From assembly GCA_011525945.1 (NCBI GenBank), contig WYBJ01000211.1, positions 1 through 40,007 on the forward strand: a stretch of 40,007 nt of DNA. The letters are read 5' to 3'. Below are positions 26,910 to 30,945 of the stretch, piece by piece. The stretch is from Burkholderiaceae bacterium. Its GTDB lineage: Bacteria > Pseudomonadota > Gammaproteobacteria > Burkholderiales > WYBJ01. The notes beneath the pieces are model-generated. The model searched no databases. It was not told the origin of the DNA and saw only the letters and a list, made by a program, of their open reading frames with translations. Made by a program: the position numbers and the translations under genes. Numbering within the stretch: the stretch's first letter is position 1; each line of letters begins with the position of its first letter.

Positions 26910-28778
26910 TCACTCGCCGCTCGAAACCAGGTGATAACACGGCGCCTTCTCCATCGTGTACTCACCGGTCTGCGGATCACGACGCGAAACCGTCAACACG
27001 TGCCAGTTCGCGTCATCCACCTTCATCGCGTCGCCCCGGTAGTAGTAGCCCGGCCAGCGGGTCTCCTTGCGAAACAGCGTGTGCTGCGTCACGCACTCGG
27101 CGGCGCGGTGGCGGTGCTTCAATTCCCACGCCCGCAGCAACTCGTGGATGTCCTTGGCGGCCAGGCTCTCAAGGTCTTCTTCCATGATCTTGAGCTTCTT
27201 GAGACAGATGTTCAGGAGCTTTTCGTTGGTCATGTAACCGACGGTGTAGCCGCCGCAATACTCGTCCATGAGCTTCTGCAGGCGGTCCAGTCCCTGTTGC
27301 GGATTGATGTAGTGCGGGTTGACGCTGCCCGCCACGACCGCATTGCGGTAGACCGTGTGATGCTCCAGCGGTTTGTAGATCTCTTTGCGGCGGCGCTCGA
27401 TCTGCTCGCCCGATACGACGATGCCTTCGGCTTTCCCGTCGTCGATGTACTTGCACGCCGCCTTCGCGGCGAGGCGGCCTTCCGTAAACGAGCCGGACGA
27501 GAAGGCATGCGGGGTGCCGCCGACGGCATCGCCGGCGCCGAACAGCCCTTCGACCGTCGTCATGCGGTTGTAGCCCCAGAAATAGTCGGGCGGGGAGACG
27601 TCTTCGGGACCCGAGCACCACGCGCCCGAGCAGGTCGCATGTGAGCCCATGACGTAGGGCTCGGATGTGGTCAACTCCGGATTCTCGTTCTTGGGGTTCA
27701 CATCGGTGGCGGCCCAGAGGACCGCCTGGCCCACGGTCATGCCGAGGAAGTTCTCCCAGCCGACCTCTTCCAGATGAGGATCCTGGAAGGCCTGCATGGT
27801 CACCATGTGAATGGGTCCACGGCCGGCTGCCAGTTCGCTGATCAAAGCGTGGTTGCGCAAGCAGGTCGGGATCGGTCGATGCGTCAGGTGCGAGACCTCC
27901 GGATCCAGATATTCCTTGCCGACCATCTTCTGCAACTCCGGAAACCACCTCGACTCGTACTCCTCGCCCAGACCGTTCTGCGTGTAGGTCTTCAGGTGCA
28001 GAAAGTACGCACCCACCGGCCCATAACCGTCCTTGAAGCGCGCCAGCACGATGCGGTTTTCCATCTGCGTCATTTTCGCGCCGCAGTTGATCATGAGGCC
28101 GTAAGCGGACGCGGACGACCAGGGCGCATACCAGGTGCGGCCGGCGCCTTCGCCGGTGGAACGCGGCTTGAAGATGTTGGAAGCGCCGCCCGCGCCACAG
28201 ATCACGGTCTTGGACTTGAAGACATGGTAGTTGCCGGTGCGGACGTTGAAGCCGACGGCGCCGGCGACGCGGTTAGGTTTGCTCTCATCCATCAGCAGAT
28301 GGGTGACGCAGATGCGGTTGAAGACCTTGTCCGCCGAAATCTTGGCGGCCTCGGCGACGATGGGTTTGTAGGACTCCCCGTGGATCATGATCTGCCAGCG
28401 CCCTTCGCGCAGGTAGCGCCCAGTTTTCGGGTCCTTCATGATGGGCAGACCCCACTCTTCGAACTGATGCACGGTGGAGTCCACGTGACGGGCCATGTCG
28501 AACAGCAGATCTTCGCGCACCAGTCCCATCAGGTCGATGCGAGCGTAGCGGACATGGTCCTCGGGGTTATTTTCTCCCCAGCGCGTGCCCATGTAGCAAT
28601 TGATCGCATAGAGGCCCTGCGCGACCGCGCCGGAGCGATCGATATTCGCCTTTTCGGCGATGACGATCTTCTTCTTCTGACCCCAGAATCTCGCTTCCCA
28701 TGCGGCACCGGTGCCGCCAAGACCCGCACCGACTACCAGAATATCGATGCCGTCTTCGATGATCGTGTTGTAGGCCAT
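26910..28778 (-). CDS. aprA: Adenylylsulfate (APS) reductase alpha subunit
   Basis: A 622-aa flavoprotein of the fumarate reductase superfamily, the usual AprA length. The FAD site starts DILVVGAGLGGTGAAWEA (12-29). AprA-specific stretches follow: IDRSGAVAQGLYAINCYMG, DLMGLVREDLLFDMARHVD and FEEWGLPIMKDPKTGRYLRE, then GRWQIMIHGESYKPIVAEAA. GYNRMTTVEGLFGAGDAVGG is the usual C-terminal FAD contact. The enzyme interconverts APS and sulfite plus AMP on the FAD. In organisms with AprM rather than QmoABC it commonly runs in the sulfite-oxidising direction. Its ATG shares a base with the aprB stop (TAATG), so the subunits are coupled. ATP sulfurylase (sat) is not in the window. Confidence 0.92.
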   Translation of the reverse strand: MAYNTIIEDGIDILVVGAGLGGTGAAWEARFWGQKKKIVIAEKANIDRSGAVAQGLYAINCYMGTRWGENNPEDHVRYARIDLMGLVREDLLFDMARHVDSTVHQFEEWGLPIMKDPKTGRYLREGRWQIMIHGESYKPIVAEAAKISADKVFNRICVTHLLMDESKPNRVAGAVGFNVRTGNYHVFKSKTVICGAGGASNIFKPRSTGEGAGRTWYAPWSSASAYGLMINCGAKMTQMENRIVLARFKDGYGPVGAYFLHLKTYTQNGLGEEYESRWFPELQKMVGKEYLDPEVSHLTHRPIPTCLRNHALISELAAGRGPIHMVTMQAFQDPHLEEVGWENFLGMTVGQAVLWAATDVNPKNENPELTTSEPYVMGSHATCSGAWCSGPEDVSPPDYFWGYNRMTTVEGLFGAGDAVGGTPHAFSSGSFTEGRLAAKAACKYIDDGKAEGIVVSGEQIERRRKEIYKPLEHHTVYRNAVVAGSVNPHYINPQQGLDRLQKLMDEYCGGYTVGYMTNEKLLNICLKKLKIMEEDLESLAAKDIHELLRAWELKHRHRAAECVTQHTLFRKETRWPGYYYRGDAMKVDDANWHVLTVSRRDPQTGEYTMEKAPCYHLVSSGE

Positions 28779-29257
28779 TAGTAGTACACGCCTTTCTTCA
28801 GCTCGAGGCCAGCGTCCTTGAGTGTACGCAGGCCGCCTTCATCCAAGCGAATATATTTCGGCTCGTTGTACAAGAGCTGGCCAGCGCGCATTTCATTGCT
28901 GGGCGCGGGAACATCGGCGAGCTTGGGGATCGCCGTGCCCCAGGGCTTCGTGGTGATGGGCGACAGGAAGTTCTTCTCGGTGCCATCCCGGAACTTGATC
29001 CGCCAGGCGATCGTACCTTTGCGCTCGTCACGATCGACCCGAACGCTGTGACCGAGCGGGGCGAAGTCAGCGTATCCGCGCACATCGATTGCGTGCTGGG
29101 GGCAGGCCTTCACGCACGAATAGCACTCCCAGCACATGTTCGGCTCGATGTTGTAGGCCCGGCGATAGGTCGGGTCGATGTGCATGATGTCCGACGGACA
29201 GATGTCGACGCAGTGTCCGCATCCGTCACACCTTGTCATATAGACGAAGGTAGGCAT
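28778..29257 (-). CDS. aprB: APS reductase beta subunit, two [4Fe-4S] clusters
   Basis: A 159-aa ferredoxin-like subunit. Two cluster sets are visible: Cys10, 13, 16 and 20 (RCDGCGHCVDICP) and Cys42, 45, 48 and 52 (MCWECYSCVKACP). The segment QHAIDVRGYADFAPLG directly after the second set is characteristic of AprB. The C-terminal tail of about 60 residues wraps around AprA in known structures and is present here. AprB passes electrons between the AprA FAD and the membrane acceptor, probably AprM. A clear AAGGAG lies 8 bases before the ATG. The stop TAA overlaps the aprA ATG. Confidence 0.94.
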   Translation of the reverse strand: MPTFVYMTRCDGCGHCVDICPSDIMHIDPTYRRAYNIEPNMCWECYSCVKACPQHAIDVRGYADFAPLGHSVRVDRDERKGTIAWRIKFRDGTEKNFLSPITTKPWGTAIPKLADVPAPSNEMRAGQLLYNEPKYIRLDEGGLRTLKDAGLELKKGVYY

Positions 29258-29305
29258 AAATCGGCTCCTTGATCCGTTGCGGGAGAACTTGCGGGCTGCC
29301 GTCGA

Positions 29306-30145
29306 TCAGTAGTGGCGCGGTGCTTCGCGCTTGATGCCGAGCCCCATGTCCATGGGTGCATCGCGCAGCAACTCCATGGAATGCCTTTGCTGCTGCTCGG
29401 GATCGTCGCGCGTCAGTGTCGGCAGGTTCTGCACGGTGCCGTTGGCTGCGGACATCCGTTTCTCGAAGGCCGCGGCCGGTTTGAAGAACATATGCGCGAA
29501 TTTCGACCAGGGAACGCCTCCGAACAGCACGACCGTGGCCAGGATGTAGAGGCCGAACACCACATTCGCGCCCGCGATGCCATTTGCCTGCATGCACGCC
29601 CAGATCAGCGCCAAGGTAACGCTCGCCAGCAACGAGAGGATGAATAGATCCGCCTTCATCAGCCGCAACGCCGACCTACCTTCCGCCGCGACGTCGACGC
29701 GGATGAAAAACCAGAACCAGTAGCCGCCGGCGCAGACCATCAGCCCGCCGAGCCACCACAGTTGCGGCAGGATCGCGGGTGTCGGGGTCGCCGGCGCCGG
29801 ATAGCAGAACACCATGATCGCCGTGGTGACGACGTGGAGCACGAAACCGTACATCGCGAGCAGGTGTGCGACGCGGCGGCGCTGGTTGCAGAACTCGCCC
29901 GAGGTGAGCACGTCCACGGCGCCGGTCTGAATCGCGATCAATATCTTCTGCCCACCCGAAACCTCTTTGGTGCTGCGAGACTTCGATCGGCGCCAGTTCT
30001 CGAAGAAGTAACGTGCGCTGCCCTTGTGCACGATGTCGAACAGCGTCCCGACCGCGACCAGGACGATCATCAGCACGACAAATGCCTGCATCAGGCCAGG
30101 CGAAATGGACGATGAAATGCCGGCGAACGGATTGCTGGTGAACAT
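29306..30145 (-). CDS. aprM: AprM-type membrane anchor for APS reductase
   Basis: A 279-aa integral membrane protein with about five hydrophobic segments near residues 16-40 (AFVVLMIVLVAVGTLFDI), 92-114, 127-150 (LWWLGGLMVCAGGYWFWFFI), 165-187 and 192-215 (VVFGLYILATVVLFGG). The gene order aprM-aprB-aprA is the one described in sulfur-oxidising bacteria such as Allochromatium, where AprM replaces QmoABC as the quinone-side partner. His residues in the second and fifth segments (LHVVTT, KFAHMFF) could bind heme, as proposed for such anchors. The C-terminal 60 residues are polar and probably cytoplasmic. The call rests on position, size and topology more than on sequence motifs. It is first in its operon and faces the palindrome at 30209. 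Confidence 0.8.
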   Translation of the reverse strand: MFTSNPFAGISSSISPGLMQAFVVLMIVLVAVGTLFDIVHKGSARYFFENWRRSKSRSTKEVSGGQKILIAIQTGAVDVLTSGEFCNQRRRVAHLLAMYGFVLHVVTTAIMVFCYPAPATPTPAILPQLWWLGGLMVCAGGYWFWFFIRVDVAAEGRSALRLMKADLFILSLLASVTLALIWACMQANGIAGANVVFGLYILATVVLFGGVPWSKFAHMFFKPAAAFEKRMSAANGTVQNLPTLTRDDPEQQQRHSMELLRDAPMDMGLGIKREAPRHY

Positions 30146-30265: not shown

Positions 30266-30330
30266 CGCCAACGACGGAAGCAACGATCCGGAGTCCGGTT
30301 CGTCATCCTTCAGTAGAGGAGCCATTCCCT

Positions 30331-30945
30331 ATGAGCACGACACCCGCTGGCCTCGCGACCCTGGTCAACCCGATCGGCGACTTCGAGGGCGAACTGTCCA
30401 CTCTCGCCCCGCGCCTGGACACGCTGAAAGGCAAGTCGATTGGTTTCATCGACAATATCAAGCCCAACGCGGGGCTCTTCCTGCGCTACATCGAGGAGAT
30501 GATCCGGGCCGACTATCCCGACGTGCGCACGCACGGCGTGCGCAAGGACTTCACGCCCAACTACCTCATCGCGGACCAGCTCTACGGCAAGGTCGACGCC
30601 GTCGTCAACGCCTGGGGCGATTGAGGGGGCTGCGCGTCGTGGTGTATCCACGACTCGGCCTATCTCGAGAAGCGCGGCGTCCCGACTTCGACCGTGATCT
30701 CGAAGGCGTTCGCACTGCACGCGCGACACGCGGCGAAGAATCTGCAGATCGACGAGTTGCCGCTGCTGATCACCCCGCATCCGGTCAACCACCTTACGCC
30801 CGAGCAGCTGCGCGAAATGGCGCAGGCTGCTTACCCAACCGTCGTCAAGCAGCTCATCGGCAAGGAGCTCGAAGCGGACACGCACATCGCTTACGTACTC
30901 CCGTCGGTGCGCCGGGATGCGAAAACCAAGAGCGAAACCCGATGA
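30331..30945 (+). CDS. UGSC-family protein with in-frame TGA, probable selenoprotein
   Basis: The frame from ATG 30331 (GAGGAG 9 bases upstream) runs 97 codons to a TGA at 30622-30624, then stays open for another 106 codons to a stop at 30943-30945. Residues on both sides form one protein: LKGKSIGFIDNIKPNAGLFL near 31, then VVNAWGD, the TGA, and GGCASWCIHDSAYLEKRGVP. The UGSC family is named for a U-G-S-C motif in which U is selenocysteine or Cys, set in a G-D-[U/C]-G-S-C-x-x-W-x-x-H-D context; here it reads U-G-G-C. A SECIS-like hairpin begins 8 bases after the TGA. The product would be 204 aa with Sec98 and a nearby Cys101, suggesting a redox pair. The stop overlaps the next ATG. Function is unknown. 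A plain nonsense mutation is the alternative, but motif and hairpin argue against it. Confidence 0.8.
30633..30657 (+). promoter_or_regulatory. Bacterial SECIS-like hairpin
   Basis: GTCGTGG (30636-30642) pairs perfectly with CCACGAC (30648-30654) around a 5-base loop TGTAT. After one C-T mismatch, two more pairs (30633-30634 with 30656-30657) extend the stem. The loop begins 18 bases past the TGA and has G as its second base. This fits the published bacterial SECIS rules I recall: loop 16-37 bases from the UGA, and a G in the first two loop positions. Confidence 0.7.

Follow-up and report, generated by a model that had tools for sequence, protein, structure and literature searches.

A UGSC-family selenoprotein gene with a U-G-G-C signature, overlapping a conserved partner gene in a Burkholderiaceae genome

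The gene described here is a real selenoprotein gene of a known family, UGSC, with a new clade signature. It was found in a window of 40,007 nucleotides, the whole stretch of DNA analysed (contig WYBJ01000211.1, assembly GCA_011525945.1, Burkholderiaceae bacterium). Sequence comparison indicates that its in-frame TGA, codon 98, is almost certainly decoded as selenocysteine by SelA, SelB, SelD and tRNA-Sec, with the downstream stem-loop acting as the SECIS element. The best explanation for the gene and its surroundings, held with moderate confidence, is that the Sec98 protein forms a unit with the product of the next gene, acts on a carboxylate imported through a TctC receptor and catalyses by means of a selenolate recycled by thioredoxin. 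A broader proposal is put forward more tentatively, at slightly under an even chance: that UGSC and its partner make up a large, substrate-diversified, thioredoxin-recycled selenoenzyme family tied to carboxylate uptake, expanded to 16-24 nearly all-Sec copies per genome in a lineage that would be among the most selenoprotein-rich outside the known anaerobes. The features of the locus are collected in Table 1.

Table 1. Features of the UGSC locus, in window coordinates
Feature	Position	Strand	Basis
RBS-like AGAGGAG	30315..30321	+	9 bases 5' of the ATG; read from sequence
UGSC-family selenoprotein gene	30331..30945	+	Pfam PF24696, 137 bits; 28 orthologues, all with TGA; coding pattern on both sides
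TGA codon 98, selenocysteine U98, in U-G-G-C with Cys101	30622..30624	+	TGA in orthologues; Cys in homologues
Upper stem-loop, putative bacterial SECIS	30636..30654	+	7 bp, 5-nt loop TGTAT; position conserved, compensated across paralogues
Partner gene, 365 aa	30942..32039	+	ATGA shared with the UGSC stop; homologue of the C-terminal domain in fused UGSC paralogues
TctC/Bug-type periplasmic receptor of tripartite tricarboxylate transporters, 321 aa	32051..33016	+	11 bases past the partner gene; third gene of the operon

The UGSC frame runs for 204 codons from its ATG to a terminal TGA at 30943-30945, and TGA98 is its sole internal stop. A first-pass annotation, made from the sequence alone, had described a 205-codon frame broken only by this TGA, which agrees with 204 codons plus the stop, and had read GGCASWC followed by IHD beyond it; both are present (GGCASWC-IHDSAYLEKRGVPTSTV). 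It had also foreseen that automatic annotation would give a 97-residue piece plus a false gene near 30694. The mechanical ORF list contains both pieces, a frame ending at 30624 and a GTG-initiated ORF at 30694-30945. Mis-annotation of this kind does occur, as seen on plasmid p2-T1 of Acidovorax sp. T1 (L215:3929-4219), where a UGSC relative with TGA is annotated as a short hypothetical protein ending at that codon; the rest of that gene has no listed feature in a plasmid gene table that is incomplete.

A scan of GTDB genomes recovered 28 distinct orthologous loci, 51-84% identical to the window protein over the aligned length, from metagenome-assembled genomes (MAGs) whose titles are nearly all betaproteobacterial. 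Every one of them has the TGA at codon 98 within the motif U-G-G-C. Differences per codon position among these orthologues are 0.27/0.20/0.52 upstream of the TGA and 0.23/0.19/0.49 downstream, and the similarity of the two patterns indicates that coding constraint continues past the TGA without a change of frame. U98, G99, G100, C101, W104, C105, H107 and D108 are among the columns that do not vary. The first-pass annotation had regarded the U-G-G-C variant as unusual; the replacement of Ser by Gly is real, but it is the signature of an orthologous group rather than a stray variant, and an odd local mutation is ruled out by its presence in all 28 loci. No relative was found on viral contigs.

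The window protein scores 137.2 bits against the Pfam UGSC model PF24696 (gathering cut-off 25), which also matches all 29 members (window plus orthologues) of the alignment. The family assignment first proposed from sequence alone is borne out by Pfam, though the NCBIfam equivalog NF041046 ('UGSC family (seleno)protein') gives 119.3 bits, just under its curated cut-off of 125. The Cys homologues that the first-pass annotation had suggested looking for at position 98 do exist: plasmid-borne relatives in the haloarchaea Natrinema, Halalkalicoccus and Halorientalis and in Roseovarius and Arthrobacter carry a Cys codon at the Sec column and bear the annotation 'UGSC family (seleno)protein'. In an alignment of 37 bacterial and archaeal sequences, P14, U/C98, G99, C101 and G116 alone do not vary. 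U98-G-G-C101 of the window protein follows the pattern Sec/Cys-G-x-C and departs from literal U-G-S-C, Gly being the third residue in the window and in its 28 orthologues. The 82 Sec copies of the genus comprise UGSC (60), UGAC (7), UGGC (6), UGTC (5), UGSS (2), UGCC (1) and UGRC (1), and since 22 of the 82 deviate from it, literal U-G-S-C is not a defining feature of the family. The two UGSS copies, in which Sec is kept and the resolving Cys is replaced by Ser, lie at G001:C44:11571-12068 and G001:C21:4598-4894.

The machinery for selenocysteine insertion was sought in the window's own assembly, a MAG of 5.29 Mb in 339 contigs, 87% complete. Two tRNA-Sec (selC) genes (80 and 75 bits), two selB genes, selA and selD were found. 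These are the genes for which the first-pass annotation had proposed a search and whose absence it had taken as an argument against selenocysteine. The two selC-selB sets lie on contigs C103 (L105) and C331 (L106), with selA adjoining only the former, and each has a TrxB-like (thioredoxin-reductase-like) gene between selC and selB. They are strongly divergent, translated pieces of the selB region being roughly 40-67% identical, and a strain mixture was rejected as their source because this divergence is too great; the two selC-TrxB-like-selB clusters possibly represent two Sec systems or a binning error. The selD gene (C193:5321-6250) has an in-frame TGA of its own, and SelD itself is probably a selenoprotein.

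Downstream of TGA98, the arms GTCGTGG (30636-30642) and CCACGAC (30648-30654) form seven perfect pairs around the loop at 30643-30647, which begins 18 bases after the TGA and has G at its second position, exactly as had been noted from the sequence at the outset. The hairpin of the window alone is only mildly unusual, 6% of synonymous recodings being equally stable, and support for it comes from the family. In 78 different Sec segments from the genus, the stem mostly keeps one position, 14 bases from the T of the TGA. Both arms change between variants: GTCGTGG/CCACGAC (encoding SW..HD), GTCGTGC/GCACGAC (SC..HD), GACGTGG/CCACGTC (TW..HV), GTCGCGG/CCGCGAC (SR..RD), GCCCGC/GCGGGC (PAVLRA) and CCGGCCTC/GAGGCCGG (PASVRP). 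In a fixed 8-bp register 77% of cells are paired, and shifting the 3' arm by 1-4 bases lowers this to 24-48%. Best stems score 19.1, compared with 12.3 in recodings that preserve protein and codon usage, with 76% of sequences in the top tenth, and the mean folding z against recodings is -1.25 at the hairpin and -0.5 to +0.1 in other parts of these genes. In the only Cys copy (G001:C44:7810) the stem is at the recoded expectation, i.e. the hairpin has been lost. By these simple measures some paralogue groups have no convincing stem, and Rfam gave no SECIS-like match at the gathering threshold over the window, nor at E <=10 in 30590-30690. Bacterial selenoprotein genes carry a stem-loop 3' of the UGA, and the family maintains one through compensatory changes across paralogues. 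The original proposal that TGA98 encodes selenocysteine is supported by the 28 orthologous TGA codons, the Sec machinery, the Cys homologues and this family hairpin together.

UGSC genes are numerous in this lineage. The window's own genome holds 16 over the Pfam cut-off, each with one in-frame TGA, and three other genomes of the genus hold 24, 24 and 19. Of these 83 genes, 82 have the TGA; the exception, G001:C44:7810-8313, has Cys in the motif GDCGTS and is fused to the partner. Over-cut-off UGSC genes occur in 19 of 200 sampled genomes of the order, several with at least 5 copies, in a search that scored no more than 16 candidates per genome. Since the 16 Sec copies stand beside CoA-transferase, MmgE/PrpD, acyl-CoA dehydrogenase and TctC genes, they suggest substrate-specialised catabolic selenoenzymes rather than a general antioxidant.

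The partner family is closely bound to UGSC. The ATGA overlap of the two genes is present in 24 of the 25 orthologues where a partner was found, the family forms a C-terminal fusion in 40 of the 83 genus copies and adjoins nearly all the others, and it also lies next to UGSC in archaea and Actinobacteria. One stand-alone UGSC copy (C126:10749) has no clear partner. Most partner genes of the window's own genome sit with a UGSC gene, and two, C327:7188-8162 and C237:2071-2307, have none in the stretches read nearby. The family (~365 aa) has no relative in Pfam, NCBIfam or the PDB; searches of PDB sequences with narrow and broad profiles of both UGSC and partner gave nothing credible, and the predicted structure of the partner (pLDDT 70.6) has no PDB fold match. 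Its invariant residues include D31, M83, G85, R153 and E186, and C86 is nearly invariant. A metagenomic study of 2008 (GOS) reported a fusion named UGSC/Unknown_1 (PMC2398784), and the partner family is probably its 'Unknown_1' domain. Gene order, fusion and conservation are consistent with the UGSC protein and its partner working as one unit, which may be a physical complex.

The third gene of the operon has a Pfam TctC match of 244 bits (C180:32183-33001), and of the 23 orthologous loci that could be tested, 19 have a same-strand TctC gene 3' of the partner. The TctC/Bug family is very large, with at least 150 places in the 5.3-Mb genome and several in the window. TctC genes account for 15 of the 98 called neighbours of the 16 UGSC copies, but their proximity at all 16 was dropped as evidence because TctC is too common, and only the operon of the window clade was used. 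The receptor of this operon would bring in a carboxylate-type substrate. The commonest Pfam neighbours of the 16 copies are TctC, CoA-transferase III, MmgE/PrpD, TPP enzymes, acyl-CoA dehydrogenase and amidohydrolase. Plasmid-borne UGSC genes of other organisms are accompanied by TRAP/TAXI or TctC transporters, CoA transferases, CoA ester lyase and members of the PEP-mutase family, and in two cases by thioredoxin reductase, once together with thioredoxin; the gene order is trxB-trxA-partner-UGSC in Arthrobacter and partner-UGSC-trxB in Roseovarius. A TrxB-like gene also lies directly 3' of a fused UGSC gene in three genomes of the genus, and thioredoxin and thioredoxin reductase genes adjoin a minority of UGSC copies overall. 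Genes annotated as phosphosulfolactate synthase occur near UGSC in the unrelated organisms Natrinema (L214) and Arthrobacter (L221). Within the window, aprA and aprB (APS reductase) and a gene for a membrane protein with weak QmoC/TcuB similarity occupy 26910-30145 on the minus strand, divergent from the UGSC operon, and suggest sulfur oxidation or reduction in this organism. A link between aprBA and UGSC was rejected, as no apr genes lie within the flanks of the orthologous loci examined.

An AlphaFold2 model of the UGSC protein (pLDDT 87) has alternating alpha and beta elements, and U98 lies where strand three gives way to the next helix. The PDB structures matched by the model are flavodoxin-like and receiver (REC) domains at low TM-scores, with no thioredoxin among the 50 matches listed, and the fold is predicted to be flavodoxin/Rossmann-like and not thioredoxin-like. 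A further comparison was provided by a PrdB/GrdB-family selenoprotein of the same genome (P0002, C157:1326-2546, minus strand; L171:739-1959), of 407 residues, which has a TGA at codon 156 (...VVLSPVUPNC...) that is kept in other genomes of the order and scores 94.6 bits against TIGR04483. A profile of its relatives aligned to the UGSC profile in hhalign with 84-90% probability, Sec on Sec and Cys on Cys; with P0002 alone the probability was 24%, and the Pfam GRDB model matched none of the 29 UGSC members. The similarity of UGSC to PrdB may be taken as a lead, not as membership. A thioredoxin-recycled mechanism is proposed on the basis of the U-x-x-C motif, the trxA/trxB neighbours and this weak profile similarity. 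The selenolate of Sec98, placed where the helix following strand three begins, would be the active nucleophile; it would be resolved by Cys101, with which we infer it forms a redox pair, and thioredoxin with its reductase would re-reduce it, much as in PrdB and GrdB.

Other readings of the locus carry different weights. That TGA98 is a true stop, whether through pseudogene formation, sequencing error or a genuine 97-residue protein, is what a plain gene caller would report and what the truncated entry on p2-T1 implies; with the TGA at the same codon in all 28 orthologues and in 82 of 83 genus copies, coding constraint beyond it and a complete Sec machinery in the genome, this reading is very unlikely indeed. 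The first-pass annotation had named relatives combining a non-Cys sense codon with loss of the hairpin as grounds for abandoning selenocysteine, and no orthologue departs from TGA. A selenoprotein of thioredoxin-like fold that serves general thiol-disulphide exchange or peroxide detoxification is improbable, if less so: the 2008 study guessed a likely thioredoxin-like fold (PMC2398784) and the U-x-x-C motif is compatible with it, whereas the predicted fold, the lack of any thioredoxin among the listed PDB matches, the 16-24 paralogues per genome, the catabolic and uptake neighbours and the dedicated partner are unlike a housekeeping protein.

The main rival to the thioredoxin-recycled selenoenzyme accepts Sec98 and dispenses with net redox chemistry, the selenolate acting as nucleophile or base in an isomerase, lyase or decarboxylase, like the Cys of maleate isomerase, and thioredoxin and its reductase only keeping Sec reduced. 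Enzymes of the Asp/Glu racemase superfamily, such as maleate isomerase and arylmalonate decarboxylase, place their catalytic Cys where a helix begins, within a flavodoxin-like half, and act on carboxylates. The predicted flavodoxin-like fold of UGSC, with its catalytic residue at a helix start, agrees with such a role, as do neighbours involved in C-C bond or CoA-ester carboxylate chemistry (CoA ester lyase, PEP mutase family, MmgE/PrpD, CoA transferase) and the two Sec copies with Ser in place of Cys101. However, all but two of the 82 Sec copies retain U-x-x-C, Cys101 is invariant among the 37 bacterial and archaeal members, trxA and trxB occur in the same gene runs, and no sequence or fold match to the racemase superfamily was obtained in Pfam or the PDB, which leaves that resemblance as a lead only. 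A non-redox role is accordingly rated unlikely, at about one chance in four, and the thioredoxin-recycled selenoenzyme is preferred.

Since 2008 UGSC has ranked with the commonest selenoprotein families of environmental DNA. The partner family, the TctC operon, the thioredoxin reductase neighbours and the very large, nearly Sec-only paralogy provide handles on its function, and copy number, partner and operon most deserve to be followed. UGSC also stands for an entire class of genes truncated at the TGA by plain annotation. Should cultured relatives show the same expansion, some betaproteobacteria would be added to the selenoprotein-rich organisms, so far mostly anaerobic. A 2026 review lists anaerobic Thermodesulfobacteriota, Synergistota and Clostridia as selenoprotein-rich groups and leaves betaproteobacteria unmentioned (PMC13188914), and a 2016 survey covering over 5,200 genomes counted 33 UGSC selenoproteins in 26 organisms, about one each (PMC5029168), in contrast to the 16 Sec paralogues of this genome.

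Compared with known UGSC selenoproteins, the window protein belongs to the same Pfam family and has U/C-G-x-C at the same place, but its clade is marked by U-G-G-C with SWC-IHD and it scores below the NCBIfam cut-off. Unlike the UGSC fusions, it has its partner encoded by a separate overlapping gene, followed by TctC. PrdB and GrdB (PF07355, TIGR04483, TIGR01918) are selenoenzymes of D-proline, glycine and betaine reductases that act on small substrates with redox partners, and UGSC resembles them in a Sec-x-x-Cys at a strand end and in the alignment of Sec on Sec between profiles. It differs from them in having no GRDB match and in being a single domain of about 180-205 residues throughout. 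The UGSC partner has no Pfam match and hence none to the Gly_reductase family to which GrdE and PrdA belong.
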